DNA from: Xiphophorus maculatus
Lineage: Eukaryota > Chordata > Actinopteri > Cyprinodontiformes > Poeciliidae
Direction: 5' to 3'
Length of the DNA stretch: 64,000 nt
NCBI RefSeq assembly: GCF_002775205.1
Contig: NC_036451.1
Span: 20,942,351 to 21,006,350, forward strand
Shown here: positions 1-44,050 of the stretch, piece after piece
How positions within the stretch are numbered: position 1 is the stretch's first letter
Layout: each line of letters starts with the position of its first letter
The notes under the pieces: generated by a model
What the model was told of the DNA's origin: nothing
What the model saw: the letters and a program-made list of their open reading frames with translations, nothing else
The model's database searches: none
Made by a program: the position numbers and the translations under genes

Positions 1-222
1 TGGCATTAAATACACAAAGGGTAATCAAGGAGCGAGACACACCTAGGAACAATCAAGGGATAGACAGGACAACGTGGAGACTCAAGACACAGAAACCCAA
101 AAATAAACACACAGAAAACTCAAAACAACACAGAAAAAACCCAATCCTGACACAATTAAAGTTTGAGATATAGAAACAGGGGAAGCATCTAAATGAAATC
201 ATAATGCATGTGCAGGTTAGAC
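1..222. other. Intron 7 of gene A with repeat-like A-rich sequence
   Basis: This lies downstream of the exon 7 donor of gene A, so it is the start of its intron 7. Bases 1-180 are A-rich on the plus strand, with a run of phrases of the kind 'aatcaagg', 'gacacacctaggaac' and 'actcaagacacagaaac' that recur in fish interspersed repeats. I cannot name the family. No coding exon is seen. Confidence 0.4.
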
Positions 223-3200
223 CTTTGGGATGGAGTATTTATCCACTGTGATGTCCTGGTTAGCTGTGCGGGGCACATTTAACGGTATGATGTTCCCCAT
301 CCTCTGTATCTCATGGATGACAGCGTTGGTGTAAGGCATGTTGTCTCTGTCAGTCATAGACGGCTGCCTGGACGGACCAATCACAGCGTCTATCTCAGCC
401 TGGACCCGCTCTGCACGTAGAGAAGAACAGAACAATCTGAGTCTATGTGCTGGACTGATGAATATTATAACATACTGTATAATGTTATAATATAGTTGAG
501 TGTAGCAATGGGAAAATGTTTGACAGACTTAGAGATGTATCAGTCAAACCAACCTTGTATTTGTGGGTTCAGGATCATGAACAGCAGCCCCCAGTGTAAA
601 GTGGTGGTGGTGGTTTCGGTTCCAGCACCAAACAGGTCCAGAGCGCAAAAACACAAATTGTCGATATCAAAACCAGAATCCTTGTCTTCTTTCTGATTGA
701 GACACATGAGGCAGATGTTGTTTTCATGAGTCATGTGAGATGAGAAGAGCTTCAAAACAGCAGGGAGGTCTCACCTCTCCCATCTCTATGAGGAAGGAGT
801 CGATGTAGTCTCTGGGTGATGAAGGGTCCAGGTTCTCTTTGTGTTCCTTGATCCTTACTTTAATAAAATCTAATAATTCGTATGTTATGGTGAAAATCCT
901 CTGATGAGGTCCAGGCATCCATTTCATCAGCCAGGGCAATGCGTTGTAAAGCTACAGAAGAGACAGAGAAATATTGATTGTTCCATCAAAATGGTTCTGA
1001 CATCCAAGTAATGAATGAGAAGTCAGAGTTTCCATCAATCATCACATCACCACCACCAGACAAAACCAGTCAGTGCCTTTCATGAACACCAGTCCCTGTT
1101 GTTTTAGCCATTGCTGGGTTTGTCTTGTCTCCAGCCAGTCTACCCATCGTTCTCTGAACGCTGACATCCATTGAGCATTTTGGTATTGGTACAGACATCT
1201 GGATAGGTTCTCTATTTTCAGACCAGTCTTTGTAAACCGGTCTGGCACCAACCGTCATGTAACATTAAAAGCTACTTGAATTTTCTTCTTCCTCTTTCTG
1301 ATTCTCCATTTGAAATTGTCATCGTCGCCTTCACCAACTTCCTGCCATGTTATTGGCTGGCTCATTATTTGTGCTAAAAATGATGTGTTGAACTGACGTA
1401 TCTAAATGGTCAGTAAGTCTATATGTGTGAATGTATCACCTCCAACTTCACTAGACTGAATCAGAGATCGCTGTAAGACTTTATGACCAGAATTACTTGA
1501 ACAAAGATTTCCCATCTGTCTCTGTATTTCCATTATTGGTAACAGAAATTGTGGTTTATTAAGTTGCTCATTGGTTAAGTAGCGCTTATCTCTGTCCCAG
1601 AGTCATACAGCTCCAACCTTCTTCTTCTCTTGGAAACTTGTCCTCACCTGTGCCCACACAGTTCCTTCGAGGTAAATCGTCTCATTGAAGTGTTGAAGGA
1701 TGATCTTGAACTGCTTGTCGTTGTACTCAAATCGATTCCCAAAGACCAAGCAGCAGATGATGTTGGACACAGCGTTGTTGATTAGTTTTTGGACATTAAA
1801 TGGCTGACCTGAAGCAAAAACAAGAAAACTCATTAGACAACAGCATTGTTCAGTAATTCACTATGTACTGAATTTTGTTTTGGTGTTTGAAACTCTGTCA
1901 CTTTGAATCCACATATTTTACTATAAATGTTGGAATCCAGAGTTTAGTAAAACAATAATAATAATAATTCCTAAATTATTCCTAAAATTACAGCTTAGGC
2001 CATTTTTTGACCAAAGGAATATTTTTTTGCCTAACACATCTTTTGGAAATAGAGAGGTGTTGATTTCTTTCCTTTTTATTTTTTATTTATTTATTTTTGT
2101 CAAAATCACTTTTGACAAAAAAAGACAAAAAGACATTAATTTAGGAATGTGACAATATATTAAAGGTATAGAGAGACACCAGGCATTGAAATGGTAAAGA
2201 AAGAATATTTAAGTGACTTTGAATGTAACATGGTGACAAGCGTCTCTATAACTGGCCTGAGTATTTTAGAAACTGACTATCTGTTCAGATTTTAACACAA
2301 ACACTTACAGAGTGGACTAAAAACACATCTGTTCTTAGCAAACAACTAATAAACATATTTTTAAAAAATCCATAGAGTGGGGGTAGACTGGACACAAACA
2401 TATTGCTAATGTCAAAGGTCATAGAAGACTGGGCAGATTTAAAGCGACTTGAAATATTTTCATTAGTTAGTTCAAAAATTCTCCAGTTAGTTACAACCAA
2501 GATATGTGAATTAGCATCTCTGAACAGTCAACGCATCGAACATGGAAGCAGATGGGCTCCAGCAGCAGAAGATCAGACAATGTGCCACTTCCATCAGCTA
2601 AGAACAGGAAACCCATCAAAGTTTGACATTAACAGATAGAAAAATGTTTCATGGTTTCATGAGTCTCAATTTCAGCTGCAACATTTAGATGCCAGTGTAA
2701 CAATTTTGTACAAATTAAAGCGTGGCTTTGCTCAGTTTTGTATTACAGGCTTGGGTAGCATAATATTTGATGAGCGTGAGCTCTCTGTTCTCTGTTGGGC
2801 TCCAGATCTCAGCCTAACCCTGCTCTTTGTGGGAAGTGGTGAAACAGATACACAAGATAAAAAAAACCTGCAGGTCCTCTGCAATGCTATCATGTTCATA
2901 TAAACCAAAACTTTTGAGGAAATTTCGCAATATCTTGTTAACCTGCACCAACAGGAGTAAAAACAATTCTGGAGATAATAAAGGTGTCCAATGTGATACT
3001 GTTTAGGACAGCATAATAAATCTAATACAGCAAATATTTCTAACAAAACCTTTTTCTGAACACAAAATAAGATTTTCCTTTTGTTTTTGTTTTTTTACCT
3101 TGTAGATCAGCAAAAGCCTCAGTGAGATACTGACACTCCTGCTGGATGGATCGCTCCAGGGTTTTCTTTCCCAGACCAAAGTTTCTGAGTGTGTGAAGAG

Positions 3201-5302
3201 CAAATCTCCTCTGCTGCTTCCAATGATTACCGCTGGAACCTACAAGACCTTTTTGAAACCAATTAAATAAAAAGTTTTACGCTGACACTTGAATGAAATT
3301 AATACTGTAGTACAGAAGCCCTGAACGGCAAAGAGAAAATATATTTTCAAAGACCCATTTTCTAAGCCAAATTGTGTTTTCCCCTGAACTTTAAAAATCA
3401 TGTAAAAGTATATAAAAAAGGAAAAACGGTATATTTTAAATGAAAATATTGTCAAGCTTTGCTGTTTAGTTTTTACTTCTGGATTCTTTCCCCTTAAGAG
3501 AGCATAAAAAAAATTGTGAGGTGCAAAATTTGATCAATTGTGTTCTTCTATTAAGTATTTCTGATTATGCAACTTATATTCCTTTCAATTCTACAGAAAA
3601 CAACTACAGAGTGGAAAGAAGTTTTAATTTCTTACTTTTTAGTCACGTAAGTCCCATTTGCCTTTCAGGGCTTTGATAAATTAATGTAATTACTAAAACA
3701 GCCAAACATTTGTTGAGTGAAATGAGATGTATGGTTTGAGATTGATTGGAAATTTCAGCTTTGACACAAAACATAAAGAATGTCACCTTTATTCCCAACT
3801 AAGTCATCAAATAAGGGGATTTTGGGACGATCGATGAAGTTTTCTCCTTGTTGGATCAGAGTTTCTCTCACCAGCTTGTAGCCATTAATGACGACAACCC
3901 TTCCACCAAACAAACGAAGACTGAAAATGTTCCCGTATTTCCCTGCAAACTGAACACAGAGCAGATATTTGAGTTCATTCACGATTCAGAAAATAAACAT
4001 TTTAAAAACCTTTGAGAAAGAAATCCAAAGGACAACATCTCTGTATTTATGTATCTTCATTGAGGTCCTGGAGCTCAAAGATAAAATTGAGGTTTGTTTT
4101 CATAGATTTTCTAACATTTGAGATCAAAAACAGCAATCATAGTTATATTTTCTCTCAGTACTTTAGCTGTCTAAAATGAACCAAATCCTTGTTAACTTTT
4201 AGCCTGCTTTTGATCAATCCCTTTGTTCCCTTTGCTGACCTTTTTGTTAATTGAAATTGTGGTTTATTTATTCTTTGATGTCCAACTATATTCTCTGTTC
4301 TTCATAGTTTTCTTTTTCATCTATTAAGAAAGCCTCACTTAAACTCTGACGATATTTATCCTGAGTATTGATGAATGTGGCCTTTGTGAATAATCTTTCC
4401 TGGATGCATCTCACAAAGGTTTTATCAGATTAAATTGTGGGGAAATAGAAAGCCAGGTGAACACTTCTGACTTTGCTTTGCTTTGGTTTCCGAGCCTTTT
4501 CTCAGGCAAGCTGCTGCCAAATGAAGAAAAAGACAAGAGAGTGAGAATGTAGGAGGCTAAAATCAGCAGAAGCCTGAATTGTGACATTATAATAACTAAA
4601 ACCATATTTGGAGTCTTGTAGTTCTCTATTCCACAACATTCCTTCTTTACCAAGAAACAAATATTCATCCAGATGAATTATACAGTATGTTTGCAGCACA
4701 GTTCTAAATAAATTTATTTACATCACAAATGTGGATGTAAAGCAAACATGTAATATTTCTAAAAGGGTCAGTATCTTTTCACATACTAATCAATCAATGA
4801 ATGAACATTAAAAAGTATGTAGGCAAAAAGTCTAGGAAGTTAGAATGATGCACTTTACTCTACTAGAGAAAAATAAAAAGGTTAGAGTCCATTTCAGCCA
4901 CCTTTATACTCTTCAGTCAACAATGTCCTTGATAAAGTATTTTATCTGAACTTAATCTATGGTATCTTTTATTTTTTTAAAAAGAAATATAATTTTGTTA
5001 TTTGTTTCTTCATTTATTGTTTGAGTCACTGCTTTATATTTGGGAAACAACATTATTTAAAGACAGAATCTATACCTTATTGCTGTGTTGTTTTCTCCTA
5101 CCTCTTTAAACTGCAGGTGAATTTTGGACGCCTTAATGCGAGGAAGGTCTCCAATAAAAGGAAAAGACCACGGGCCTGGTGGAAAGTTACTAGGCACTCT
5201 GTTCTTCACAACATCTGTCAGCAGCAGAAAAACACAGAAAAATATCAGAAAACTTCTGAGGTCTATCCACTCCAAGCCCAGGACGCTCAGGATCGTCTCC
5301 AT
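223..5302 (-). CDS. Gene A: cytochrome P450 family 2 (CYP2P/CYP2J-like), exons 1-7, cut by window edge
   Basis: This encodes an ER-bound heme monooxygenase of family CYP2. Exons on the minus strand are 5302-5102, 3949-3787, 3248-3099, 1808-1648, 951-775, 692-554 and 410-223; exons 8 and 9, with the heme cysteine, lie beyond position 1. The start is the ATG at 5302, which gives the 67-codon first exon shared with genes B-F; an in-frame codon upstream would add only five residues. Residues 1-30 form the hydrophobic anchor, PPGP is at 41-44, the I-helix AGTETT at 307-312 and ExxR (EIQR) at 364-367. All splice sites are GT-AG and the visible frame is open. Exon 1 and exon 2 peptides are identical to gene B, but exon 4 differs at 12 of 54 residues. 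Family membership is certain. CYP2P-like is inference; automated annotation would probably say 2J-like. Confidence 0.95.
2094..2121. repeat. Short perfect hairpin in gene A intron 3
   Basis: Two perfectly complementary 12-base arms (2094-2105 and 2110-2121) are separated by a 4-base loop. It lies in intron 3 of gene A, in a stretch with no counterpart in the intron 3 of gene B. Confidence 0.6.
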
Positions 5303-5416
5303 GTCTTCTATGAACACCGAGGTGAAGCAAAGGAACCAAATGTTTTAGCAAATATAGCAGGAAGCAGATAAGACGCACTGTACTGGGTTAATGTTTCACT
5401 AGGAAACATTGCTGAG

Positions 5417-5429
5417 TTTCAAAATAAAA
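5417..5429 (-). promoter_or_regulatory. Putative core promoter element of gene A (TTTTATTTTGAAA)
   Basis: Read on the minus strand this is TTTTATTTTGAAA, 115-127 bases before the start codon. The same element, often extended to GCTTTTATTTTGAAA, occurs upstream of genes B, D and F and in modified form upstream of C. It resembles a TATA-like box at a plausible distance for a 5' UTR of 80-100 bases. Function is inferred from conservation only. Confidence 0.5.
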
Positions 5430-6237
5430 CCACCCAGCTTGTATGTATACTGTATGTCTCATTCAATACAAATAATACACAGCTTCTTTACATCACGTTT
5501 TTATTTTCTTTATTTAGGTTTGATTACAAAAGTGATGACCTGTCAATGAAACTGTTATGAATAAATTCATAAAATTCAGAACTTTTACCATGATGAACTG
5601 ATTTTTGGTCAATGAATGTATTTCTGACTGAAACACAATAGTCAATGGCTCCTTTCTTGAATATGTTGCATATTGGATTCATGTTCATGTGTATTTAAAG
5701 ACAACTTTGGATAAAAAACAAACAACTGAATATGTCAAATCAATCAGAAATTTTACAACACCCTCTTGTAGTACTGGCACAACGCCACTGGGGGTCGCGA
5801 CTCCCAACTTGAAGACCTCTAATCTAAGTCATAACACTTGGTTATCTGCAAATCCTTTTAAATCTGCGTTTTAAATTCATAAACCATTAAAGTTGCCAGC
5901 CAAACATTTGTGAGACTTGATGATTATCCTGAAAGTATTTGCAAGGAAAAGAAATGATAATACAGCATCCACTGAATCGTAGATTTGTTCAAAGTACTGT
6001 AAATACTGTAAATACTGGAGACTAACCTTTAAAAGATCAAAAAGAATCCAAAAAAGTGTTGCTAAACAAACGTACATGCAAGAAATATCTTAAGTAGGTT
6101 AATTACCTGAAATTGTTTTCATGAGTGCATTAATATATGTGTGCAAATTCAGTTTAAATGAAACAATTATTTAATGAGTCTGGTCCAATAAAATCACGTC
6201 ATTTACCTTATACAGCATTTTTCTAAACATTTTAATC

Positions 6238-6243
6238 TTTATT
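6238..6243 (-). promoter_or_regulatory. Poly(A) signal of gene B
   Basis: AATAAA on the minus strand, 85 bases after the stop codon of gene B. The same hexamer and context are kept in the relic near 12226. Confidence 0.55.
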
Positions 6244-6327
6244 GCACATTATAAGTTAATTTTCATGTTGACTGCCATTATGACTCATTTTATAGTGATT
6301 TTATGGCTGCAGTCATCAGGCAGCAGG

Positions 6328-9300
6328 TTAACGTGGTGCAGCACAGAGGCGGTAAGGTTTGGGACAATGAGTGAGTCCCAGTTTGAACTCCAGACTGGGC
6401 TTCTCTCCTGGAGGAGATGAAAATGTGAACCTCTGGAGGAGGGAGGTGAAGAAGAGGAACAGCTCCATCCTGGCCAGCTGCTCCCCGAGACACACACGTT
6501 TACCTGAGGATGCAGAATTATAACGTTTTTAATCAGATCTGATGTCACAGAGTTCATGATCGCCTTAAAATTTATGTAAAATGGCAAATTAATGCCAAGG
6601 TCAGCAATAATTGGAAGTGTGATGTGGTATTTCACTGAGACACTATATATCAAATCAATTTATATAGTTAGAGCCCACTTATAACAAGCTTCCTATTACA
6701 TTTAGATATACAACACAACACTGTCAAGATGAGGTCAAAAAACTGATTCAAAGTCTCAAACAACAAGTTAAAAAATAGTATTTATACATAAACAGAGGTA
6801 CAGCTCAATAAATTGGAATAGTGTGTAGCCCAGAAAAAGATTTTTGCGTTAAAAATATTTTTGTATTAGTCATTTAGATTTTCTGACAAACTGAATTTTG
6901 GGTTTTCATTAACAACAAACGGTTTTTATTAAATTAATGCTTAAAATACGTCACTGTCTGCAGCAGGTTTGATCTGAAATAAAATCAAGCATTAATTCAA
7001 CATGTGGTGACTGCATGCTAAGTTTTTGAACATCTGGTTGAGGTTTTTGAAGGTCTCTGAGACAAAAATGTCTTATTTTATGAGCTGTCCATAAAATGAC
7101 ATCAAAGTTCAACATCCAACCTGCAGAGAAGGGAAGAAATGCTTCTCTCTTCCTGAATTTGCCGTCCTTTTCCAGAAAGTGCTGAGGATTGAAGGTGTAC
7201 GGAGTTTCCCACATGGACTCATCGTGTAAAACTGAGTCCAGCATAGTGAGGATTATGGTGCCCTGAAAATCAGTGCAGTGTTAGTCAGATTGGACCGGAT
7301 ACATTATTTTACTGCTGATTTATGGAAAGTCATGTTATCACATTATAGGGGAAGCATCTAAACAAAATCATAATGCATGTGCAGGTTAGACCTTTGGGAT
7401 GGAGTATTTATCCACTGTGGTGTCCTGGTTAGCTGACCGGGCCACATTTAACGGTATGATGTTCCCCATCCTCTGTATCTCGTGGATGACAGCGTTGGTG
7501 TAAGGCATGTTGTCTCTGTCAGTCATAGACGGCTGCCTGGACGGACCAATCACAGCGTCTATCTCAGCCTGGACCCGCTCTGCATACAGAGAAGAACAGA
7601 ACAATCTGAGTCTATGTGCTGGACTGGTGAATATTATAACATACTGTATAATGTTATAATATAGTTGAGTGTAGCAATGGGAAAATGTTTGACAGACTTA
7701 GAGATGTATCACTCAAACCAACCTTGTATTTGTGGGTTCAAGATCATGAACAGCAGCCCCCAGTGTAAAGTGGTGGTGGTGGTTTCGGTTCCAGCACCAA
7801 ACAGGTCCAGAGTGCAAAAACACAAATTGTCGATATCAAAACCAGAATCCTTGTCTTCTTTCTGATTGAGACACATGAGGCAGATGTTGTTTTCATGAGT
7901 CACGTGAGATGAGAAGAGCTTCAACACAGCAGGGAGGTCTCACCTCTCCCATCTCTATGAGGAAGGAGTCGATGTAGTCTCTGGGTGATGAAGGGTCCAG
8001 GTTCTCTTTGTGTTCCTTGATCCTTACTTTAATAAAGTCTAATATTTCGTGTGATATGGTGAAAATCCTCTGATGAGGTCCAGGCAGCCATTTCATCAGC
8101 CAGGGCAATACGTTGTAAATCTACAGACAAAAAACAAAGAAAAATCGGTTGTTTCATCATAGTGGTTCTGACACTACGATCTTCTAATTGCATATCCAAG
8201 AATGAAAGCTGTTTTTCACGTAAATATTTTATTATTGTTTTACCATAAAATTTTCTGCTGTTCTCACCTGCGCCCACACACTTCCTTGTAAGTACAGTGA
8301 ATCGTCAAAGTGTTGAAGGATGATCTTGAACTGCTTGTCGTTGTACTCAAATCGACTCCCAAAGACCAAGCAGCAGATGATGTTGGCGACAGCGTTGTTG
8401 ATCAGTCTATGGGCATTAAATGACTGACCTGAAATAAAAATAAGAAAACACCATGGTCATTGAACCAGCTGTTGAATGCAGCTGATGAATGAAAAACAGG
8501 AAATGCTAGAGCACCTGCCTACAGGTGCTCTAGCATTTCCTGGTACACGGCTACATTGACTGTAGACTTCAGGAACCCAGTGGACCAACACCAGCAGATG
8601 AAATGAAACCCCAAAACCATCATCGACTGTGGAGACTTTACACTGGACATCAAGCAATGTGGATTCTGGTCCTTTCCTCTCTACCTGCAGACATTCGGAC
8701 CTTGATTTCCAAATGAAATGCAGAATTTTCCTTCATCTGAAAGTTTTATAGTTGCTTTATTCAATTTCTTCGTCACAGAAAAGTAAAATCTGTATTCACC
8801 ACGCTGTTAGTCTTCTCAGCAAAATTGCCAAAGCCTTCTTGAACAACATCGATTCTCCCTGCAAAAATAGGAAATAGGTGCTTCCAGAAAGCTAAGGTAA
8901 GTCTAGGTGAACCCAAACACCTGCTGTTTCCTGTTTACCATGAGAATGCAGATCTAAAAAGCTGCAGAAACAACATAATTGGGAATTCTCTTTTGCTGCT
9001 ACTTTTCTTTTCAAATACTTTTTTTGTGTGTTTCATGTGTCCCAGTTGCTATGCTTTCATAGTTTTTAACTTACGTACCATATTTGCAGTTGGTGAATGT
9101 ATTTTCTGATGGCTGTAATACCAGTAGGGTCAGTTTAATAAACCCAATATAGTGAATTTTTCAGACATGGTTGTCCTGAAGACAAAATAAGATTTTCCTT
9201 TTGTTATTTTTTTTTTTACCTTGTAAATCAGCAAAAGCCTCAGTGAGATACCGACACTCCTGCTGGATGGATCGCTCCAGGGTTTTCTTTCCCAGACCAA

Positions 9301-11306
9301 AGTTTCTGAGTGTGTGAAGAGCAAATCTCCTCTGCTGCTTCCAATGGTTGCCGCTGGAAATTACAAGACCTTTTTGAAACCAACAAAAAAGAAAAGTTTT
9401 ACGCTGACACTTGAATGAAATTAATACTGTAGTACAGAAGCCCTGAACAGCAAAGAGAAAATATATTTTCAAAGACCCATTTTCTAAGCCAAATTGTGTT
9501 TTCCCCTGAACTTTAAAAATCATGTAACAGTATATAAAAAAGGAAAAACGGTATATTTTAAACGAAAATATTGTCAAGCTTTGCTGTTTAGTTTTTACTT
9601 CTGGATTCTTTCCCCTTAAGAGAGCATAAAAAATTGTGAGGTGCAAAATTTGATCAATTGTGTTCTTCTATTAAGTATTTCTGATTATGCAACTTATATT
9701 CCTTTCAATTCTACAGAAAACAACTACAGAGTGGAAAGAAGTTTTAATTCCTTACTTTTTAGTCACATGAGTCCCATTTGCCTTTCAGGGCTTTGATAAA
9801 TTAATGCAATTACTAAAACAGCCAAACATTCTTTGCGTGAAATGAGATTGATTGGAAATTTCAGCTTTGACACAAAACATAAAGAATGTCACCTTTATTC
9901 CCAACTAAGTCATCAAACAACGGGATTTTGGGACGATCGATGAAGTTTTCTCCTTGTTGGATCAGAGTTTCTCTCACCAGCTTGTAGCCATTAATGACGA
10001 CAACCCTTCCACCAAACAAACGAAGACTGAAAATGTTCCCGTATTTTCCTGCAAACTGAACACAGAGCAGATATTTGAGTTCATTCACGATTCAGAAAAT
10101 AAACATTTTAAAAACCTTTGAGAAAGAAATCCAAAGGACAACATCTCTGTATTTATGTATCTTCATTGAGGTCATAATTTTCTTTTCCATCTATTAAGAA
10201 AGCCTCACTTAAACTCTGACAATATTTATCCTGAGTATTGATGAATGTGGCCGTTGTGAATTATCTTTCCTGGATGCATCTCACAAAGGTTTTATCAGAT
10301 TAAATTGTGGGGAAATAGAAAACCAGGTGAACACTTCTGACTTTGCTTTGCTTTGGTTTCCAAGCCTTTTCTCAGGCAAGCTGCTGCCAAATGAAGAAAG
10401 AGACAAGAGAGTGAGAATGTAGGAGGCTAAAATCAGCAGAAGCCTGAATTGTGACAATTATACAGTACGGTTGCAGCACAGTTATAAATATATTTATTTA
10501 CATCACAACTGTTGATGTAAATCCACATCTAATATTTCTAAAAGGGTCAGTATCTTTTCACACACTAATCGTCATAAATAATGCACTTTGGAAATCACTA
10601 ACATCAGACATTTATTAGGCTTTTGAACAGTTTGTCTCTATGCTATTACCACTACTGCAACAGTAATAATGAATTGTATCACCAAATGTTGTGTTTATGA
10701 AGGTGTACAATTTTTCATTACTGTGTTTTCTAAAAAAAAAAGTGAACTTTTTCAAGGTATATCTATAAGGAGAAGTGGTAAAGGCTCACAGGAAATATGA
10801 TGAATGAACATTAAAAAGTATGTAGGCAAAAAGTCTAGGAAGTTAGAATGATGCACTTTACTCTACTAGAGAAAAATAAAAAGGTTAGAGTCCATTTCAG
10901 CCACCTTTATACTCTTCAGTCAACAATGTCCATGATAACATATTTTATCTGAACTTAATCTATGGTATCTTTTAATGTTTTTAAAAAGAAATATAATTTT
11001 GTTATTTGTTTCTTCATTTATTGTTTGAGTCACTGCTTTATATTTGGGAAACAACATTATTTAAAGACAGAATCTATACCTTATTGCTGTGTTGTTTTCT
11101 CCTACCTCTTTAAACTGCAGGTGAATTTTGGACGCCTTAATGCGAGGAAGGTCTCCAATAAAAGGAAAAGACCACGGGCCTGGTGGAAAGTTACTAGGCA
11201 CTCTGTTCTTCACAACATCTGTCAGCAGCAGAAAAACACAGAAAAATATCAGAAAACTTCTGAGGTCTATCCACTCCAAGCCCAGGACGCTCAGGATCGT
11301 CTCCAT
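6328..11306 (-). CDS. Gene B: cytochrome P450 family 2 (CYP2P/CYP2J-like), complete
   Basis: A complete nine-exon CYP2 gene encoding 498 residues. Exons: 11306-11106, 10055-9893, 9369-9220, 8428-8268, 8120-7944, 7861-7723, 7579-7392, 7262-7121 and 6503-6328 (stop TAA). All introns are GT-AG. The product has an N-terminal membrane anchor (about 1-30), PPGP 41-44, AGTETT 307-312, EIQR 364-367 and the heme loop [10 protein letters not shown] with Cys445 as axial ligand. It should act as an NADPH-reductase-dependent monooxygenase on the cytosolic face of the ER; CYP2J/CYP2P relatives epoxidise arachidonic acid. It is a recent tandem copy of gene A: exon 1 and exon 2 peptides and about 0.8 kb of 5' flank are near-identical, while intron 3 is unrelated and exon 4 is divergent. 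The gene looks functional. Confidence 0.96.
8457..9170. other. Sequence private to gene B intron 3, origin unclear
   Basis: This replaces the intron 3 sequence found in gene A and contains the 21-bp hairpin at 8497-8542. The phrase around 8545-8660 looks like part of a dispersed repeat, but I could not assign a family. No open reading frame with a recognisable domain is present. Confidence 0.35.
8497..8542. repeat. Perfect 21-bp inverted repeat with 4-base loop
   Basis: Arms 8497-8517 and 8522-8542 are perfectly complementary over 21 bases, with the 4-base loop ccta. The hairpin lies in intron 3 of gene B, inside a 0.6-kb stretch that gene A lacks. Such structures can arise from template switching during replication; no RNA function is indicated. 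Confidence 0.85.
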
Positions 11307-11420
11307 GTCTTCTATGAACACCGAGGTGAAGCAAAGGAACCAAATGTTTTAGCAAACATAGCAGGAAGCAGATAAGACGCACTGTACTGGGTTAATGTTT
11401 CACTAGGAAACATTGCTGAG

Positions 11421-11433
11421 TTTCAAAATAAAA
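11421..11433 (-). promoter_or_regulatory. Putative core promoter element of gene B
   Basis: Identical to the element at 5417-5429 upstream of gene A, at the same distance (115-127 bases) from the ATG. It reads TTTTATTTTGAAA on the minus strand. Confidence 0.5.
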
Positions 11434-12124
11434 CCACCCAGCTTGTATGTATACTGTATGTCTCATTCAATACAAATAATACACAGCTTCTTTACATCAC
11501 GTTTTTATTTTATTTATTGAGGTTTGATTACAAAAGTGGTGACTTGTCAATGAAACTGTTATGAACAAATTAAGAAAACTCAGAACTTTTACCATGATGA
11601 ACTGATTTTTGGTCAATGAATGTATTTCTGACTGAAACACAATAGTCAATGGCTCCTTTCTTGAATATGTTGCATATTGGATTCATGTTCATGTGTATTT
11701 AAAGACAACTTTGGATAAAAAACAAACAACTGAATATGTCAAATCAATCAGAAATTTTACAACACCCTCTTGTAGTACTGGCACAACGCCACTGGGGGTC
11801 GCGACTCCCAACTTGAAGACCTCTAATATAAGTCATAACACTTGGTTATCTGCAAATCCTTTTAAATCTGCATTTTGAATTCATAAACCATTAAAGTTGC
11901 CAGTCAAACATTTGTGAGACTTGATGATTATCCTGAAAGTATTTGCAAGGAAAAGAAATGATAATACAGCATCCACTGAATCGTAGATTTGTTCAAAGTA
12001 CTGTAAATACTGGAGACTAACCTTTAAACGAGATGGACTTTGAGACAAAAGATAATAATGCAAAATCTTTAAAAAAAAAAAAAAAAGTGTTGTTAAACAG
12101 AAAGTAAATGCTAGAAATATCTTA

Positions 12125-12640
12125 AGTAGGTTGATTACCCGAAAGTGTTTTCATCAGTGTGGGCCAATAAAATCACGTCATTTTCCTTAAACAGCCATTT
12201 TCTAAACATTTTAATCTTTATTGCACCTTATAAGTTAATTTTCATGTTGACTGACTATTACATTTAGATATACAACACAGTCAAGATGAGGTCAAAAAAT
12301 CTGATTCAAAGTCTCAAACAAGTTAAAAAATAGTATTTATACATAAACAGAGGAACAGCTCAATAAATTGGAATATTGTGTAGCCCAGAAAAATATTTTT
12401 GTGTTAAAAATATTTTTGTATTAGTCATTTAGATTTTCTGACAAACTGAATTTTGGGATTCCATTAACAACAAACAGTTTTAATTAAATGAATGCTTAAA
12501 ATATGTCACCGAGGAACCAGATGTTTTATTATCAAACACAGCGGGAACCAGATAAGACAAACTGAACTGAGTCAAAGTTTCACAGGTGAAAACAGCTGAG
12601 TTTCAAAATAAAACCACTCAGTTTGGTTTAAGCTGTGTTG
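12125..12640 (-). pseudogene. Collapsed A/B-type CYP2 gene copy with all exons deleted
   Basis: Three pieces of an A/B-type unit are fused here. About 12125-12250 matches the 3' flank of gene B (near 6090-6275). About 12250-12508 matches part of gene B intron 8 (near 6690-6950). About 12509-12640 matches the 5' flank of genes A/B, including the TTTTATTTTGAAA promoter element at 12601-12613. Exon 9 is missing between the first two pieces, and exons 8 to 1 between the second and third. The second junction shares the bases 'cac' between the partners, as in end-joining or misaligned recombination. A third tandem copy therefore once stood between B and C and was lost by deletion. There is no coding capacity. 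Confidence 0.75.
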
Positions 12641-12652
12641 AACCAGGAACTA

Positions 12653-13220
12653 CACTGAAAAAATGAGAATTGAGGGGTCTTTGAATTTGCACAAACAAAA
12701 TAAGTTAATACTACACAAGTATTGTTGTACCTTTTCTAATTGTTGAGTGTTTTTTCTACCCTTTCACCCAGTGCTGTCTTAAAACACATAATGTAATACC
12801 ACTTAAAAAAATGTCTTTGAATTAACGTAATTCAATCATGGAAAGGATAGCTTTCTTTCAGCATGAAGCATGTTTGTTGAGCTAACTTAATTTTAATGAG
12901 TTGGATCAACTTAATTAAGTAGTGTGACGGTACCACTGTAACATGAGGTGGTTTCAACTAAATTTGCATTCATCTTAATCAAGTAAAGTCAATTATTTGG
13001 TCCAAAACTCTGCAAATTAGTTCGGCTGGTTCTATTAAATTACATTGGGTCCAACTATAGTAAATGAGTTGAATCAACCTTAATAAATTAAGTTGAACTA
13101 ACACATTTGCTTTAAATTGGAGTAACATAATTACATAGTGTTGAAATAAACAAAGTTATCAGGTGGAAATCCTTTCCATGATATTTTTAATGTTAATCCA
13201 ATTAGTTATTTTTTTTAGTG
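12653..13220. mobile_element. Non-autonomous DNA transposon (MITE), TA-flanked
   Basis: The ends are inverted: CACTGAAAAAATGA at the left and CACTAAAAAAAATAA read inward from the right. TA dinucleotides flank both ends (12651-12652 and 13221-13222). The inside is AT-rich with repeated phrases of the type 'agttgaactaac' and 'gagttgaatcaac', typical of abundant fish MITEs. It encodes nothing. It sits directly beside the collapsed gene copy. Confidence 0.6.
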
Positions 13221-13852
13221 TACGCTACATTATCACAAACTATTTATGGAGTAAAACTCTCTTTTTCAAACTGTATTTTAAACTACAGTGAAACCCAACT
13301 TAACAGTGAAGCAATAATTGTACATGAAACTTTTAAGGCTAAAATGATCACATCACTCAGAATATATACAATCACAATTGTGACAATGTATGACAAAGTA
13401 CAATTGTCATACATTGTATACATTGTTATACATTGTATGACAATGCATGTCATACATGTGAATGTATGTCATTCATACAAATGTTGCAATTATGAAAAAC
13501 GGATGCAAAATGTTCTCATCAGAAGATGCAACATTTACTTCAATTGTTGAGACTTGCGCAAGATTTCAAGATTATTTATTTTTGTACAACACAAAAGTGA
13601 CACAACAACAGCAGATATATTGCTTGTTTCAGGTTATTTAGTAAGTTGTAGCTAAGATAAACCCAACAATGTTAAAGTCTTTTCTGAAAGTCTTTAAAAA
13701 CAGATGATTTAAAAAATGTAAGTCACTCAAATGTCAGTGACTTTAAATGTCTTGATTGTGCGTCTACGTTACCAGCAAATATTTCATTCGACATATTTTT
13801 GATTTACGCCAAGATAGCAATATTTGAAGTCATTGCCATCTATTTTCATGGT
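13221..13852. other. Intergenic, 3' flank of gene C, with nested short inverted repeats
   Basis: An AT-rich stretch with repeats of 'catacattg' and its complement between 13385 and 13460 that make several overlapping imperfect hairpins. A possible poly(A) signal for gene C (AATAAA on the minus strand) is at 13575-13580. No gene is seen. Confidence 0.5.
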
Positions 13853-16800
13853 TTAACGTGGCACGGCACAGAGGCGGTAAGGTTTGGGACTACGAGCTGC
13901 TGCCATCCTGCACTCCAGACTGGGCTTCTCTCCTGGAGGAGGTGAGAACCTAAACCTCTGGAGGAGGGAGGTGAAGAAGAGGAACAGCTCCATCCTGGCC
14001 AGCTGCTCCCCGAGACACACACGTTTACCTAAGGATGCACAGTTCGACACATAGTTACTAGTTATGCAACACAAAGTAATATTACGGTAGTTTCCTACTT
14101 TTCTATTTGATATTAAATTTAACAAAAAGTCAAAATTATTGAGATGCAATGAAAATAATGTCTTATAGAAAAATGTAAAATACTAAAACTGTTTCTAAAC
14201 CTGTTTATTTACATAAGATATAGCTCCTGCAGGCCTATGCATCAATACTGTTTTTGTTCAATCTCAAAATAATAATTTTATTAGAAAAAATTATTATACT
14301 TTTAGTAATTTTTACATGTTTTTCCTCAGCATTTCACCTTTTTATTGTCATTTAAATTATTTTATACCCAATAAATAAGTTACTTTAACCAACAAATATT
14401 TGGGTTCCTTGATAGTTTGTGTGTTCAGTTTTAAATTTAAACCTAAATTAGATTAGATTTTTTTTGTTCCTTTATGTACTTTGTAGTAATAGATATATAA
14501 AATAAAAAATAAAAACGTTTTAAAAGCTCAATTCCATAAACTTAAAAACAGTTTTGCAGGCACATTTCGCTTTCTCTGAAGAATATTATTGATATAACCT
14601 GAATGAACATCAAAATTGATTACATTTCTACAAATAAATATATATGTAATAAACTTCTAATTCATTTTTTTTAAGTTACAAGAGCAACATTTAACATTTC
14701 ATCAATAACCACTTTCACTATGTTACTTCTCTTCAAAATAAGAACAAGCAGTCACCAAAAGGCTCTGGCTGACTACAAGTGAATATGTGCCAACTCTGTT
14801 AAACTGTATCAAGCAGAATAAAACACTTTAAAAAATTAAATAAAAGACTTACCTGCAGAAAAAGGCATGAAGGCGTCTCTCTTCCTAAATTTACCGTCCT
14901 GGTCCAGGAAGTGCTCAGGGTTGAAAGAGTGTGGCGTCTCCCACATGGACTCATCATGGAGGACAGAGTGAAGTGGAGCTAATATCAAGGTGCCCTGAGG
15001 AAAAAAACACAGCAAATACACGGCTTTATACTCCTACTTTTTAGTCACACCTTAATGTTTCCAAAAACAGTTTTATATGTCTGCCAATACGTTTGTTTAT
15101 GTCGCTGTGAAGAAACTGTGATCCACTCCGAATTGCAGAATTTATTTATTTTACACATCCAATCGTTTTTTTTTTTTAACAGTTTATGCTTTTTTAGATC
15201 ATGCAATGCATTTTAATCAAACTTTTTTGTAATTGTCTCCATTTTATGTATTACAAAGCTATGTTACCATTTTTCCCAAATAGGTGATGTATAGAACAAA
15301 GCACACTACTGGCTAAATGTAATTCAAGGATGCTAATCAATGCTTCACATCTACAACTTTCACTCTGTTTTAGGTGGCATTCTTGTTTTTGTCATCCTTA
15401 AACCCCGAGTATCATTCTTTTAGCCCATCATGCATGGGCAAAAAGAGTGATATTTATGATATATAAAAGGATGAATTTTGTGGTTGAAAAACTGTTTCAC
15501 CAAGTAATCAGATCAACCACAGCAGCTGCTTCTGCTTGTTAATCACTGCAGGAGGCTGACTGACAAGGAGGAGGATCTAATCAAAACAAATAAATAAATA
15601 ACAATAGATCTACCATTCACAAAACCTTGGATCTATAACATTAATAATTTAGCAAAAAATAAATTAATCTAATTCTTAAAAGGCTCCAACAGTGTGCATA
15701 AAGTTTAAATTCCTGTGTGTCTGCCCCAAGTGGTCAAATGTGTGAATTGCAGTTTGTCAAGATAAACAGATGATCTTCAGATTTTTACATCACCTTTAAA
15801 AAAAACAATCAAAGATGGAAAATATTCAGTAAGAGGAGCCCTGATACAGCAGGAGTCTACAGTCATTGTGTTTGAAGAAGTCAGTACAGAGCAATCTGTA
15901 ATGATCTATGACAGATAATTGTTCCTGGATGTTAAGATGCATTTATAAACTCATAATTAATGTTGTTTGCATATTTTGTACCTTTGGGATGGAGTATTTA
16001 TCCAAGGTGGTGTCTTTGCTTGCTATTCGAGGCACATTTAACGGGACGATGTTCCCCATCCTCTGTATCTCGTGGATGACAGCGTTGGTGTAAGGCAGGT
16101 TGTCTCTGTCAGTCGTAGACGGCTGCCTGGACGGACCAATCACAGCGTCTATCTCAGCCTGGACCCGCTCTGCATGCAGAGAAAAACAACCTTTGAATCT
16201 ATTGTTACACTGATACTCTGAAATGTAAATTTTATAAAGATTATACCCAACACCAGACTGATCTGTTAGTGAGTGGTGAATATGTAAAGTCATAGGAATA
16301 CTTGCTTCCTCACACACCTTGTATGTCAGGATAGTAGATCATGTACAGCAGCCCCCAGTGCAAAGTGGTGGTGGTGGTTTCAGTTCCAGCACCGAACAGG
16401 TCAAAAATGCAAAAACACAGATTCTCCAAATCAAAACCGGAGTCTTTGTCTTCTTTCTGTAAGTAACATAAATAAATGAATCAGATGAGAGCATGTGCTT
16501 AATGAGACACAGCAGAGTCCTCACCTCTCCCATCTCTATCAGGAAGGAGTCGATGTAGTCTCGTGGAGATGACGGGTCGAGGTTTTCTCTGTGTTCCTTG
16601 ATCTTGATTTTTATGAGTTCAACTATCTCCCTTGTTATGGAGAATAGCGTCTGATGAGGCCCCGGCAGCCGCTTCATCAGCCAGGGAATTACGTTGTAAA
16701 GCTAAAGACCATAGACATACACTTTTAGGTGTCAGAAACATTTTTATTTCAAGGTATGCCTTCATAAAAACAACACAAATCTACTCTACAAAATAAAAAA

Positions 16801-18057
16801 TGTGTTATGGATTTAGTCCATATTTTGATTCAAGGATTTTTTTTCTTTTTTTTTTTTGAGAGTTCTCACCTGCACCACTATGTTTCCCTGTAAGCGCATA
16901 ACTTCATTGAATTTCTGCAGTATCGCCTGCTGCTGCTGGTCTGTGTACTCAAATCTGTTCCCAAAGACCAAACAGCAGATAACATTGGACACAGCCTTGT
17001 TTACCAAAGTCTGGGAATTAAAAGGCTGACCTGTAAGATAGAGAAACGTTTCAGTAAGATTTCCACCGTTTTTAAACATCCTTTGTGAGTTTTTTCACTT
17101 TTTTTGTTATTCTATGTGTTTCATTTCTCTTTGTTATGTAATCTGGGGAAATACTGTGTCCCTCACTCTTATTATCATCTTGCTTTTCACAGATCTGCTT
17201 CCTCTTGTCATGCTGTTTGATCCTGCTTCTGTTCTTAGGATACAAGAGCCTCTCAGTGACTTAGAATATAATGGGAAAAGTTAATTGATTTAAATAATTC
17301 AAATCTGAGAGGGAAACTCGTATATAAATTCCTGGTAATATATTTCCAGCCTTTATATTAGGGATACACGATATACCTGCACTAACGTCAGTGTTGGTTG
17401 ATGTTAGTAATTTATTAACAGATCGGTATTGGTCCGATAAATAAGACTGGCCTGATGTTAACAACTAGTATTTATTTCCATCTTGTTTGCTTCTGGAGGA
17501 GATCGATGGTGGTATTTGTTTGATTGACCATGTGACGGTGACAGTCATGCACCTCAAGATTGTGGGAAATTTAACTGAAGCAGAGAATCAGTGGTGGAGA
17601 CAGCAGTGTGGTCCATTTTTTTAAAGGTATTGAAACGCTAATGAGATCAGTTATCAGCCATAACAACAATATTAATGTCAGATATCGATATTTGGCCCAA
17701 ATTTCCATAGTTAGATATGAAAATTTAGATACTTTTCAGTAAGTATCTAACTTCTAATATTAACTTTTAAAAGTTAATATTTTTTAAGTAAAATACTTTC
17801 ATTGGTCCTTTGTCATTTTTACATTTTCTAAGGAACTGAATGTTTTTCTTTTTTTTAATATGTCACTTTTGAAATAAAGTCACTGATATAAATCAACTAT
17901 AAATTCTAATTAACATGCACCTACACATAAAACTTGGTTTAGATTTTCTTTTAAAAGTCCTTAAAGTTTCTATTCCACTTGTGTCCTCTTATTTCTTCAC
18001 AGCTTTCAGGGTTGGTGTTCATAATATGTGTAAAATTAATAAAAAAAATAAGTCAAA

Positions 18058-18132
<75 letters not shown>

Positions 18133-19927
18133 GGATATATTTGCCTTTATGAGCGGCGTAGCCCTCTGTGAGGTACTGGCACTCCTGCTGGATGGATCGC
18201 TCCAGCGTTTTCTTGCCCAGGCCAAAGTTTCTGAGTGTTTGAAGAGCAAATCTCCTGTGTGTCTTCCATGGATAACCACTGGAACCAACAAGACCTATTG
18301 AAAGCAAAAAACAATGTTACAGTAAAGGTATTTGGGAATTACTCCATTAAGCAACATCTATATGATTTGTTTCTTGTGTGAAATAGTTGTTATCAATACC
18401 AAAACTAAAAACTGCAGATTTGGACACAAAATCTTTACCTTTATTCCCAACTAACTCTTCAAACAGCGGGATGACGGGACGATCTACGAAGTCTTCTCCT
18501 TGAAGGATCAGAGCCTCCCTTATTTGCTTGTAGCCACTAACGATGACAGTCCGGGCACCAAAGAGGCGAACACTGAAAACGTTCCCATATTTTTCTGCCA
18601 ACTGAGCACAAAGAATGGCCCCAATGACTCAACACAAAGGAAAAATGAATTGTCAAAACACTGAGGACACTTTCCTTTTGTGCTCAGTACCAGCAGTCCA
18701 CCCAGTCAGACGGGGAGCAGTGTCCCTAAAAGCTTTAGTTCGGAGGTTTAGTGACTTCCTAAATCTATAAAGAACCTTTGAATGTCTTCCTACTTTGTTA
18801 CAGTACAGCCCCAAGCTTGAATTTATTTTATTGCAGTTTTAAGTGATAAACCAACATTTCTGTTTGTGCATCTGTCAAACTGAGAAACACAGACCAAATG
18901 TTCAACCTCAAATCTAGAGATCTTGCACCAATTATTTTATGGTTATATGTTTTGGCTGAGATAGCTGATGAATGGATAGTGTGAACTTGGCTTTGAAATG
19001 GCCAAGTCAAAGTCCAGACCTACATTGGAAACACCTCAAAATGTTCAATTACAGAGGTCAAAAGGTTGTGCGTTAGCTATGTAGGAAATGGCATAAGCTG
19101 CTTTAAAGCTCCATTATGTAAGTTTTGTAGAAATATCTATTTTTCACATTTATATTGTGTCGAGACAGTACGTGTACGAGAAAAAATCTGAGCTTTTCTG
19201 CCTCCTCTCTATGGACCTGCTGTCTACTGAAATACACTGCTCCATCAGAAACAACACATCAGAAGAAGGAAGAGGGTCTTAGCACTGTCAATCACCCTCG
19301 TGTAAGCATCCCTCCGTCAGCATGGCCACCAATGACGACAGATATTGGTGGCCTGATAGGTTGGTTTTGCTCTGGTGCATTTCATCAGACAGCAAGAATA
19401 CCACTGGGAAGAGATGGAGGAGCTAAATCTTTTCACGGATTATCTGTCTCATCTTACATTGTCACAACACAGTTACAGTGTTAGGAAATGTGTAAAAAAT
19501 ATTATTGTAAAAGTTACACACTGCAGCTTTAATTGCAGTGAAATGTGGCGCAACAAACTACGGACTCCTGGGGTGGGGCCTGAATAAAAATATGTTGAAG
19601 TAGGGCAACTCTTACTTGAGCAAAGTTTTTGGATACTTTGCCCACCTCTGATTATACTTTATTTTTCTGAGTCTAACTGCTTGTATTCACAGTATCTACA
19701 TTATAAAACTATTTGACAATCAGACCAAGGTCCAAATTGTCGGTGAAATCCTGCGCTTCATTTGACTATAGTATAGTCACTATACCTTTACACTAGTTGC
19801 TTCCAAATCCGGATCATCGGGGTATTTTAGTTATTTTAATGTAAGAGCTGCAGTTTCATCTCCCACAGAGAAAACAAATCACTCTCAAAGAGATAAACCT
19901 GAAAATGTTTCAGAGTATTAAACTCAG

Positions 19928-19959
<32 letters not shown>

Positions 19960-20180
19960 TTTTGCATTTTATTGAATACCTCAGAAAACTGCAGGTGCAT
20001 CCGAGAGATGTCGATGAGATGAAGGTGTCCAACAAAAGGAAGAGACCAGGGTCCGGGTGGAAAGTTTCTCGGCACTCTGTTCTTCCAAACATCGCTCAGC
20101 AGCAGAAAAACAAACACAAATATGAGAAAGCTGCTGCTGTCGATCCAGTCCAAGCCCACAACACGCAGGAGGGACTTCAT
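13853..20180 (-). CDS. Gene C: cytochrome P450 family 2 (CYP2P/CYP2J-like), complete
   Basis: Nine exons encode 498 residues: 20180-19980, 18601-18439, 18294-18145, 17030-16870, 16701-16525, 16456-16318, 16169-15982, 14994-14853 and 14028-13853 (stop TAA). The start ATG gives the family-typical 67-codon exon 1. The anchor, PPGP 41-44, AGTETT 307-312, EIQR 364-367 and heme Cys445 ([10 protein letters not shown]) are all present. The exon 3 donor is odd: the length-conserving site is AAAG|GCAAAT, a GC donor. A GT donor lies 12 bases downstream, with its GT at 18132-18131 at the edge of an AT repeat, and would add four residues in frame. All other introns are GT-AG. The gene is more distant from A/B than those are from each other. 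Expected to be an ER monooxygenase; subfamily is inferred. Confidence 0.95.
17355..17705. repeat. Degenerate dispersed repeat in gene C intron 3
   Basis: A stretch starting 'gggatacacgatatac' with later phrases 'gatatcgatatttggcc' resembles the 'gggatgcacgatat' class of fish hAT-like repeats. Clean termini and a target duplication are not visible. It is probably an old, decayed insertion. Confidence 0.35.
17756..17781. repeat. Perfect 26-bp palindrome
   Basis: A gap-free perfect palindrome of 26 bases (arms of 13) in intron 3 of gene C. It is AT-rich, so chance is more likely than for the GC-containing hairpins listed elsewhere. Confidence 0.6.
18061..18131. repeat. (AT)n microsatellite abutting exon 3 of gene C
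   Basis: About 71 bases of uninterrupted AT. On the gene strand it begins 12-14 bases after the end of exon 3, so it directly adjoins the splice donor region. Confidence 0.95.
18781..19070. mobile_element. Tc1/mariner relic in gene C intron 1
   Basis: The left part has the sort of phrase ('ttgttacagtacagcc', 'gataaaccaac') found at the ends of a widespread fish Tc1-like family. Bases around 18998-19022 translate as WPSQSPDL, the conserved transposase block before the last catalytic residue. The rest is deleted or decayed. It lies upstream of exon 2 in intron 1. Confidence 0.5.
19107..19528. mobile_element. TTAA-flanked MITE (piggyBac-like by target site)
   Basis: TTAA flanks both sides (19103-19106 and 19529-19532). 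The ends are inverted and imperfect: AGCTCCATTATGTAAGTTTT on the left and AGCTGCAGTGTGTAACTTTT read inward from the right. The 422-bp interior has no transposase. The TTAA target suggests mobilisation by a piggyBac-type enzyme, which is inference. Confidence 0.45.
19929..19963. repeat. (ATTT)n microsatellite in gene C intron 1
   Basis: About eight tandem ATTT units, 17 bases downstream of the exon 1 donor on the gene strand. Confidence 0.9.
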
Positions 20181-20579: not shown

Positions 20580-21912
20580 GGAAACTGGACGGAACTAACA
20601 GGAAAATCCTGAAGAAGAAAAAATCTAATTGTATTTTAACAATTTCGCAGGGAAATGAGATCCAGTGATCGTAACATGGTGAGCAATGTCAACTTTCAGT
20701 TGAATTATTGTGTCTAACTGCTGTGGGTATTTATGATGTAGATCAACTTCATTTAGAAACGCCAAACTCACTTTCATTTTGGGCCGTATCAAAATTATTT
20801 TTATTTGCTTATTATAGAAAAGATTTACAAAAGCTGAGAAAATGAAACATGAACAGAATTTGACGAGAACCAGGAGAAAAGAGAACGGGGGAGAACCTTA
20901 GCAGGACACGGAATGAACAAAGCACAGAACAAAAGAAAGAACTGAGAAAGCCAAAACAAAGCAATGAACTAACTGATTGTGGAAACCATGACTGAAACAT
21001 TAAAAAATCAACAGCCAAAAGAAAGAAATAAACAAAACACCTCCACGAAAACCATGACAAAAGTACCCCAAAGTTTATGGTCGTAATCATATAATCCTGG
21101 TTGGCAACATGTGGAAAAGCTCAAGGGTTGTGAGCAGTTCTGCATCTGTTTTATTTACCTTTTATTGACTGATTCCTGTCCTGGCATTCAGCTTTACTTT
21201 TGCCCCACTGACTCGCACTTATCAGTGACATTTCTCCCAGTGGTAGATCAGCTTTATCTTATCTCCAAAACTTTTATATTACCCCTGAAGCTGAAAATAT
21301 CCAGCTGCTTTCACAATAACTTTTCTCCAAAGCTTATCAGGAGATACGCTGATTTTAAAGACAGAGGTAAAACCAAAGCTTTTCATTTAAGACTAGATGT
21401 ACTTTGTTGATCCCAGAATTGGAAGATTATTGAAGTCAAGTGATTATAGACATTTGTGAATACTGATAAAACATGAAAGTTATGATTTCATCACGTGATC
21501 ATTTCAAAGCTGTTCCTTTGGCCTTTTGTGTCGTCTTTCATATCTTCTAGCTTAAATACGTTCTATGCTTCTTTTTAAGGAAGTGAACATTACATCAAAA
21601 ACATTTCACTGTAAAAAAATATTAAATGGACATGAATCACAACCAACAGAACTTAACAGGTTATTGATCTGCTTCCCAACAACAGGTTCAAAATGTAAGC
21701 AAAATATTCCAGAGCAGGATGAAATGTGTTTTAGATTAAAATATAGCCATTTAAGTCAGACCGTTCATTTCTAGCATCAACAATTTGGACAACTTTATTT
21801 CTACACAATTTGATATCTTAATAGCTGTAATAGAAATAGGATTTAAGACACAGCTGCCACTGAGATCTTTGATTTCAGAGACAGTGTAATGGATCCAAGA
21901 GGTTCTGTTGGT

Positions 21913-28431: not shown

Positions 28432-29329
28432 TTGGACTCCCTTTTGCCTTAGTTCTATGAATCATACATTAATAAGACATTAAAAACAATCCTGAGAGCT
28501 GTTGGTCATTTGTGTAATTTATTATATCTTATGTAAATGCATAACATGCTTCTTTTTAAGGAAGTGGACATTACTTTAAAAACATTAAATCTCTGAGCAG
28601 ACATGAATCACAGCCAACAGAAACTGATTTAAACAGGTAAGATGCATGATTACATAATATGAGGCATCCCTAACACTGACAATGACATATCTTAGAAGTT
28701 AGCAGAATGGATTCTTTAAATAAAAGTCATTCCTGTTCTCAGTCAGCAGCTGTCATATTATGCGAAACAGTCACATATTCACCACAGATTTAACAACTTT
28801 ATCTAAACGTCTATGAATGCAGTAAAGGCCACTATCATGCTCCAATGTAAATATTGACCAAAAAGATGCTTTGTATCTGTTCATTTCCATTTTACATATT
28901 TAGTTATCTTGTCTGTGTGTTTTCTAATTAGGCTTGTCATCCAGAAATAGTTTTCAAAGGAAGGTTTCATTTTGATCAACTCCCCACCAGCAGGTTTGTC
29001 ATTTTGTCATTTGTTGAACAAATTCAAGCAACACATGAGGTTCCACAGAAAGCTTAAATACCTTTTACAATAAAAATATGGACATTTAGTTCACACTGTC
29101 AATTTCAACAATTTACACAAACATATTGCTACACAATTTATTCGAAAAGTATCAACAATCATTCAGTTTTATGGACTTATAGTCTAACTTTCACAAAAGC
29201 AGCAGATTAAAGTTTTGATATCTTAATAGCTGCAATAGAAATAGGTTTTAAGACACAGCTGCCACTGAGATCTTTGATTTCAGAGACAGTGTAATGGATG
29301 CAGGAGGTTCTGTCAACACTTCTGTTGGT

Positions 29330-42700: not shown

Positions 42701-44050
42701 CTGTACGTGTTGGACCACATTAAGGAGCCTATGTGAGACTGTTTGATTGTGTTGGGTTGTTGTTTTTGTTGTTGTTGTTGTTATTTAGGAATAGACAACA
42801 GACCAGCAACCTGATCCAACGGATTAGACTCTTGTCATTTTACAGCCAAGTTGACTTTTCTGGAAATTGGTGCAGAAAAGTGATGGGCTGATGTGTATTT
42901 GTTCAGATTATATTCAGCCATGTGAAAAACATTTATTTAAGAAAAATATTTTTGTATATTTTAATCATGTTTGTTACAGTACCATGGTATGTATCGTCCT
43001 GACACCAGGGTAGGATTCAAACCACGGACTTTCTTTCTGCAAAGCAGCAGCACTAATTTGCACCCTGGACTTCTTTTCTTTATGACGGCGCTGGAATTAA
43101 CCCTTTTCTCTATCGTCATGTCTTTTTATTTTTTTGTATTTGCCAATCATTGTGCGAAAAGCTTAAGCTTTTACATGATTGACTTGAAAAACTCTCTAAA
43201 AAATAAAAAAGTTGCCATAATAAAACATGTTATCCAAAACTAATTGGTTAAGTTGCACAAAATTCAAGACCAAACTTCAGCATTAGGAGAGAACAAACAC
43301 AGCTTTAATTAACATTTGCAAATGGAGAAACCATACAAAGCTCACATCTCAGTGAGAATCGGATGAGTTCTGACTTGGGGCTGAACGTCCCCTCATCTAC
43401 ATAGGATACATCACACGTTACGTAGCCACACCCCCTGGCTCAAGTGTCAGTCAAAAATCTATAAGTTACTTATCTGTAAGTTTCAGTTGAGCAGGGTTAC
43501 ATACACATTCACAGCTCAACTCTAGGCGTTTATCCAAAACGACCTCTCTGCTGATGGCTGAACAGATACTAGTAACTGAACTTCTACAAAATAGGCTTAT
43601 CACCTAAACCATGTCTAACATTTCTAACTGCTGAACACCCTGTTCTTCACTTATTTGCGGAGGGTCAGAAGAGCATATGTCCTGTTGAGCTGCAACTGAG
43701 TGCAAACCTTTAATAAAAACATCATAAAGTGTACATTCAAATTTATTTAAACATTGTTAATACATTTTTCCTTCACAAATTGGTTAAGTTATTAGGACCT
43801 CCCACTGACCCCGGGGGAGTTTACATTCTTCCAGTCTGCAGTTGTCTGGAACATTTTCAACTTTGGCCGTGTTTATTCCTGTTAATGGGTCCAGAGAGGC
43901 CACCAGTGTTACATAACTCCACTGGAGCCAGTTTTTTTTCTTTTTCCCTCGACATCTGCCTTCCTGTCTTAGCCCACTCTGCACAGAACTAGTTGCAAGA
44001 ACAAGCTCAATTTTCATCTTAGCTGGGCCATTCTTACTATTTTCTTCACC

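Follow-up and report, generated by a model that had tools for sequence, protein, structure and literature searches.

An exon-free CYP2 relic in a fish P450 tandem array and the probable mosaic origin of the adjacent gene

The window analysed here, a 64,000-nucleotide stretch of DNA (C9:20942351-21006350 of a 704.3-Mb, 101-contig assembly), carries a fish CYP2 tandem array whose genes A-F lie on the minus strand. Between genes B and C is a stretch that resembles parts of gene B, and the question is what this stretch once was and how it came to be there. An earlier note had read positions 12125-12640 as the fossil of a third A/B-type copy, in which the 3' flank, intron 8 and 5' flank of gene B stand side by side. 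The fossil, or lost gene, is called Y below, and T1 and T2 denote parts of the spacer between genes A and B. The features concerned are as follows.

1-5302, minus strand: gene A; exons 7-1 inside the window, start codon at 5302
5460-5820, unstranded: a dispersed repeat within spacer T1; the copy adjoining gene B lies at about 11464-11824
6328-11306, minus strand: gene B, an intact CYP2 gene of 498 codons; probable mosaic of A-type and Y-type parts
12029-12253, minus strand: T2, spacer remains adjoining the lost exon 9; aligned to 6030-6274
12254, unstranded: junction 1; a 418-bp gap in B coordinates (6275-6692) that includes exon 9, with one base unexplained
12255-12509, minus strand: intron 8 fragment of B type; 92.8% identity to B 6693-6954 (E 5e-108)
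12507-12511, unstranded: junction 2; intron 8 meets the 5' flank at CAC, exons 8-1 absent
12510-12640, minus strand: 5' flank and putative promoter of the lost gene; blastn matches over 12512-12625
13853-20180, minus strand: gene C, a tandem CYP2 gene

Genes B and C both have intact 498-codon frames, with nine exons each in the splice models. Exons 8 and 9 of gene A lie to the left of the window, and the 3' end of that gene was fetched from the assembly. Gene B matches the Pfam p450 domain (PF00067) at E 2e-138, and all 38 solved chains that it matches at E<=1e-100 are named P450 family 2. Genes A-F can be assigned to the CYP2 family on this basis, the domain and solved-relative tests bearing on gene B only and the nine exons on B and C. 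P450-like pieces continue on the opposite strand beyond 44 kb. Intron 3 of gene B contains a 46-bp near-perfect palindrome (91%) at 8497-8542.

Comparison of 11001-13500 with the window by blastn, together with alignment, places three collinear exon-free blocks between genes B and C, in the order and on the strand that they have in the gene unit. The first belongs to a copy of the A-B spacer. Positions 11001-12253 match 4997-6274 (90.2% in blastn); the copy is near-identical up to about 12013-12028 and diverged from there to 12253, with 12081-12253 corresponding to 6052-6274. Judged by eye from the alignment and the sequence, the diverged stretch begins at about 12028 instead of 12125, and the block that had been taken for the 3' flank of gene B is actually A-B spacer. 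The reading of 12029-12253 as the inherited 3' flank of B was rejected once the left flank had been fetched: A's own 3' flank differs, and B's likeness to it ends about 16 bp beyond the stop codon.

The intron 8 fragment follows junction 1, and the gap at junction 2, 6955-11317 as counted in B, is at most 4363 bp long. Beyond this gap, 12512-12625 matches the 5' flanks of both gene B (11335-11445; 81.2%, E 3e-23) and gene A (5331-5441; 80.3%, E 3e-22). The 'cac' microhomology reported at the junction is present: intron 8 ends in GTCAC (12505-12509), and the fossil continues with CACCGAGG from 12507. Gene A carries CACCGAGG in its 5' flank as well, at 5315-5322 and 12 bp away from its start codon. 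If this motif marks the end of the retained flank, the flank would reach to 12 bp from the start codon, and an 11-bp loss between two AGG copies would have come later.

No exon was detected in 11307-13845 by tblastn, where protein B gave a single match at E 4.7 and protein C none at E<=10; an exon-based search does miss this copy, as the earlier note had predicted. As a control, the left flank from -19900 to -2275 was sampled in 60 overlapping pieces of 516 bp, and none of them matched 5303-11600 at E<=1e-10. Collinear similarity to gene parts, including an intron and flanks, and the absence of intact coding capacity are two marks of an unprocessed (duplicated) pseudogene relic, a third of which would be an intact gene at this site in an ancestor or relative; a solo or detritus exon would contain a recognisable exon, and the fossil has none. 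The data support its identification as the exonless remnant of an additional CYP2 gene copy.

The three blocks are unequally diverged. Between B and Y, 14 of 169 sites differ in T2 (12081-12252), 11 of 255 in intron 8 and 22 of 113 in the 5' flank. For the same flank the A/Y comparison gives 23 of 113 sites, and A and B differ at 1 site of 139. T2 is somewhat more diverged than intron 8 (p 0.096), and a single age for both is not proved; T2 and the promoter differ at p 0.01.

The blocks also differ in kinship. Among the informative sites of intron 8 (250 columns), 101 group B with Y, 3 group A with B and 3 group A with Y; for the promoter (114 columns) the corresponding numbers are 1, 22 and 0 (Fisher p 2e-20). 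With differences in 43% of the 250 columns, intron 8 of gene A is hard to align, and for this reason the test was run again on its best-aligned 60 bp. The 15 informative sites found there comprise 12 that group B with Y, 2 that group A with B and 1 that groups A with Y, and the switch persists against 113 promoter columns (1 site grouping B with Y, 21 grouping A with B; p 9e-7). A second anchor in intron 8, of 24 columns, contains no informative sites. Behind the Y promoter, in 12626-13240, there is no match to the T1/T2 sequence that the A and B promoters have behind them. By the divergence of its 5' flank, Y's promoter is an older lineage than those of A and B. What remains of the proposed third A/B-type copy is the lost CYP2 copy itself; the A/B label does not suit a relic whose promoter is older while its intron 8 resembles that of B and is distant from that of A.

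Gene B is itself uneven when compared with gene A. The two differ by 0-4% in exons 1-3 and 5-8, in introns 2, 5 and 6, in three stretches of intron 1, in the promoter and in T1. Higher values are found at the end of intron 8 and in exon 9 taken with the next 16 bp (6% each), in exon 4 (13%), in part of intron 7 (15%) and in two intron 8 stretches (14% and 49%). Comparison with the 3' end of gene A shows that A and B are old paralogs. The B/Y divergence in intron 8 (11/255) is similar to the A/B divergence in the A-type parts. As expected of a hybrid gene, parts of B group with different neighbours; a single crossover point was not found. The second patch unlike A surrounds exon 4 (8121-9219, against A 952-3098), where introns 3 and 4 align at their edges only. 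Since exon 4 of B is 13% off A and its flanking introns hardly align, more than one exchange, or conversion, is indicated, and one clean crossover appears too simple for gene B.

The reading that we prefer, with a probability of about 0.7, is that gene B is a recombinant of gene A and the lost gene Y, and that Y was the original second gene, later stripped of its exons. The original array would have been A-Y-C, with A and Y as old tandem paralogs and Y as a complete CYP2 gene between today's B and C. Unequal recombination between A and Y would have produced the recombinant B between its parents and duplicated the spacer. B would have inherited the A-type promoter, 5' flank, spacer and most exons, and taken the Y-type intron 8, probably with exon 9, Y's own exon 9 being gone. 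Y, then redundant, would have lost its coding part through two deletions. Assuming a gene Y of the size of B, one would have taken about 0.4 kb including exon 9, and the other as much as about 4.4 kb, reaching from intron 8 to a point some 12 bp short of the start codon; this second deletion would have used a 3-bp microhomology, as end joining does. The sequences themselves show the blocks and their order, the missing exons, the intact frames of B and C and the kinship switch between intron 8 and promoter; the direction, number and order of the exchanges, and a once functional Y, are what we infer from them. A variant, in which B was first copied from Y and afterwards overwritten by A through conversion, may also apply. 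On either variant the fossil promoter would be the last seen copy of the original promoter of the Y lineage; no other copy of Y's old promoter was seen.

Other explanations leave some of these observations unaccounted for. A deletion might have joined parts of two different lost or neighbouring genes, the intron 8 of a recent B-like copy and an older gene's promoter, more than one copy having been lost. The best two-rate partition of the divergences does set T2 and intron 8 against the promoter (AIC 305.5), but such a fusion requires an extra gene that left no other trace, and no further CYP piece was found in 12626-13848; we regard it as unlikely. If Y were simply a third tandem copy of the A/B unit, stripped of exon 9 and exons 8-1 by two deletions, only duplication and deletion would be needed; the block order and the microhomology fit this. 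One common divergence, however, fits badly (AIC 320.7 vs 304.6 for three rates), and the Y promoter stands without adjoining T1/T2. The switch in kinship between intron 8 and promoter argues for a recombinant B, which a plain third duplicate would not give, and this simpler history is distinctly unlikely. Finally, one break could have removed the whole coding part, its repair copying 255 bp of B intron 8 as a templated insertion. In its favour, divergence is lowest in the intron 8 block, and the two outer breaks fall near where the coding part began and ended; against this, pairing T2 with the promoter gives a worse partition (AIC 310.1 vs 305.5) and these two blocks differ in divergence (p 0.01), and we consider the insertion very improbable.

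That the blocks are dispersed repeats brought together by chance is hardly credible: the neighbouring T1 and 12723-13232 are repeats and part of B intron 8 has short matches elsewhere, but the whole intron 8 block matches B and Y only and the 516-bp stretch this cluster only. This stretch gave 5 matches in the whole assembly at E<=0.001, all in this cluster and including itself, so that the fossil reading stands in the comparison that the earlier note had named as its refutation. The assembly searches skip very common words; match counts are therefore lower bounds, and absence elsewhere is not proved. The 377-bp middle of B intron 8 gave 11 matches, namely itself, the fossil (93%) and 9 short ones of 33-99 bp, all within query positions 174-294 (about 6837-6957 in B intron 8). 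A short dispersed repeat thus sits within B intron 8, and the block as a whole is common to B and the fossil only in the assembly searched. The middle of A intron 8 matched only itself. For the query 5303-6330, which includes the T1 repeat at 5460-5820, 18 of 21 matches lie elsewhere in the assembly (66-83%).

Upstream of the fossil promoter, at a distance of about 100 bp, lies the dispersed repeat 12723-13232; at least 103 assembly matches to 12626-13240 were found, with 40 of 64 candidates scored. A mobile element as the cause was rejected, since this repeat starts about 100 bp past the fossil and accounts for neither deletion. A putative terminal inverted repeat, TACACTRAAAAAA, with arms at about 12651 and 13221, scores 21 against a maximum of 28 in 200 shuffles and is not above chance, and no target-site duplication is evident in the flanks of the block. 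A fish repeat motif has two matches in the window, one in B intron 8 and one in the fossil, and 15 of 100 shuffles have as many. The same motif occurs at 2 loci in viral contigs.

The promoter-like element described at 12601-12613 is present as TTTCAAAATAAAA. Its core, TTTTATTTTGAAA, is intact in the fossil and common to A, B, Y, D and F; gene C has a variant, and E is without a clear match. It stands about 70-135 bp ahead of the start codons. Taken singly, the pairwise matches that surround it are weak (E 0.004-0.085), and its sharing and position support TTTTATTTTGAAA as a candidate promoter core. The fossil core falls within a 23-bp identical run, a length reached by 952 of 20000 shuffles; the case for selective constraint on it is weak, and the core may have survived by chance.

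Two minus-strand AATAAA signals lie inside the fossil, at 12525 and at 12217 (12217-12222), the latter occupying the place of the first AATAAA behind the B stop codon (6238). Both would be met before gene B, which argues against read-through into B. Should the fossil promoter be active, a short non-coding RNA with its end at the AATAAA at 12217 or 12525 would be the likely product. Most likely the fossil has no present function. That the relic is still a promoter, yielding a short non-coding RNA just upstream of B (AATAAA about 0.4 kb off) or an alternative start for B, seems quite improbable; if true, a lost gene's promoter would have been retained to regulate the recombinant that took the place of that gene.

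Pseudogene remnants and hybrid or converted genes are kinds already known in P450 clusters, the latter two in CYP2 clusters (PMC3012610, PMC7692531, PMC3161012). Human CYP3A-se1 and CYP3A-se2 are described as P450 remnant pseudogenes consisting of single remnant exons (PMC3012610). Like fossil Y they are traces of a lost gene in or beside a P450 array, but they retain an exon, whereas in Y a promoter, a piece of an intron and spacer survive and every exon is gone. CYP2D6/CYP2D7 hybrid genes and tandems are reported as human alleles (PMC7692531), and there too neighbouring CYP2 paralogs recombine into a hybrid within a tandem array; by comparison, the exchange in gene B is deduced from one assembly, and one parent is an exonless relic only. 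According to the account of the primate CYP2abf cluster, CYP2A13 was overwritten by conversion from mostly non-coding donors (PMC3161012). This resembles gene B in that a CYP2 gene is mosaic and its partner can be a non-coding relic; method and species differ.

The teleost CYP2N/2P/2AD cluster, which is given as syntenic with human CYP2J2, includes mangrove killifish CYP2P16-19 of 1497 bp and 498 codons (PMC3012610, PMC5751882). Genes B and C have the same 498 codons, and the present array likewise consists of tandem nine-exon CYP2 genes of similar size, part of them on the other strand; the likeness is one of size and arrangement, and the portions of these accounts consulted mention no exonless relic. 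No exonless P450 relic appears in the titles and abstract openings of the papers listed in the literature searches, which is not proof that none is in print. The fossil is an unusual example of an ordinary process: promoter and intron survive without any exon, and the relic points to a mosaic origin of its neighbour. Gene counts in P450 clusters lean largely on exon searches. The present case suggests that such searches can lose sight of a whole gene whose non-coding remnant is still enough to expose recombination in a living neighbour, and discordant promoter and intron kinships can reveal hybrid genes and lost donors. The accepted picture of gene-family evolution is unchanged by Y.

Five intergenic stretches were scanned for other exonless fossils, and no second case was found in them. 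The left flank to -20000, past A exons 8-9 and their flanks, gave only a 60-bp match near -16333, which pairs with 58266-58325 and 51266-51320. A 38-bp match joins 43013-43050 to 51290-51327, and the 5' flanks of D and E share one 47-bp match. Two matching pieces, in gene D intron 1 (25650-26212) and in the plus-strand part of the array (53817-54182), with values of 81% and 87.5%, are probably a repeat. With inverted self-matches set aside, the C-D and D-E spacers share three matches. Their conserved pieces, 21518-21651 and 21707-21908 against 28502-28622 and 29041-29313 (70-96%), are possibly shared 3' flanks.
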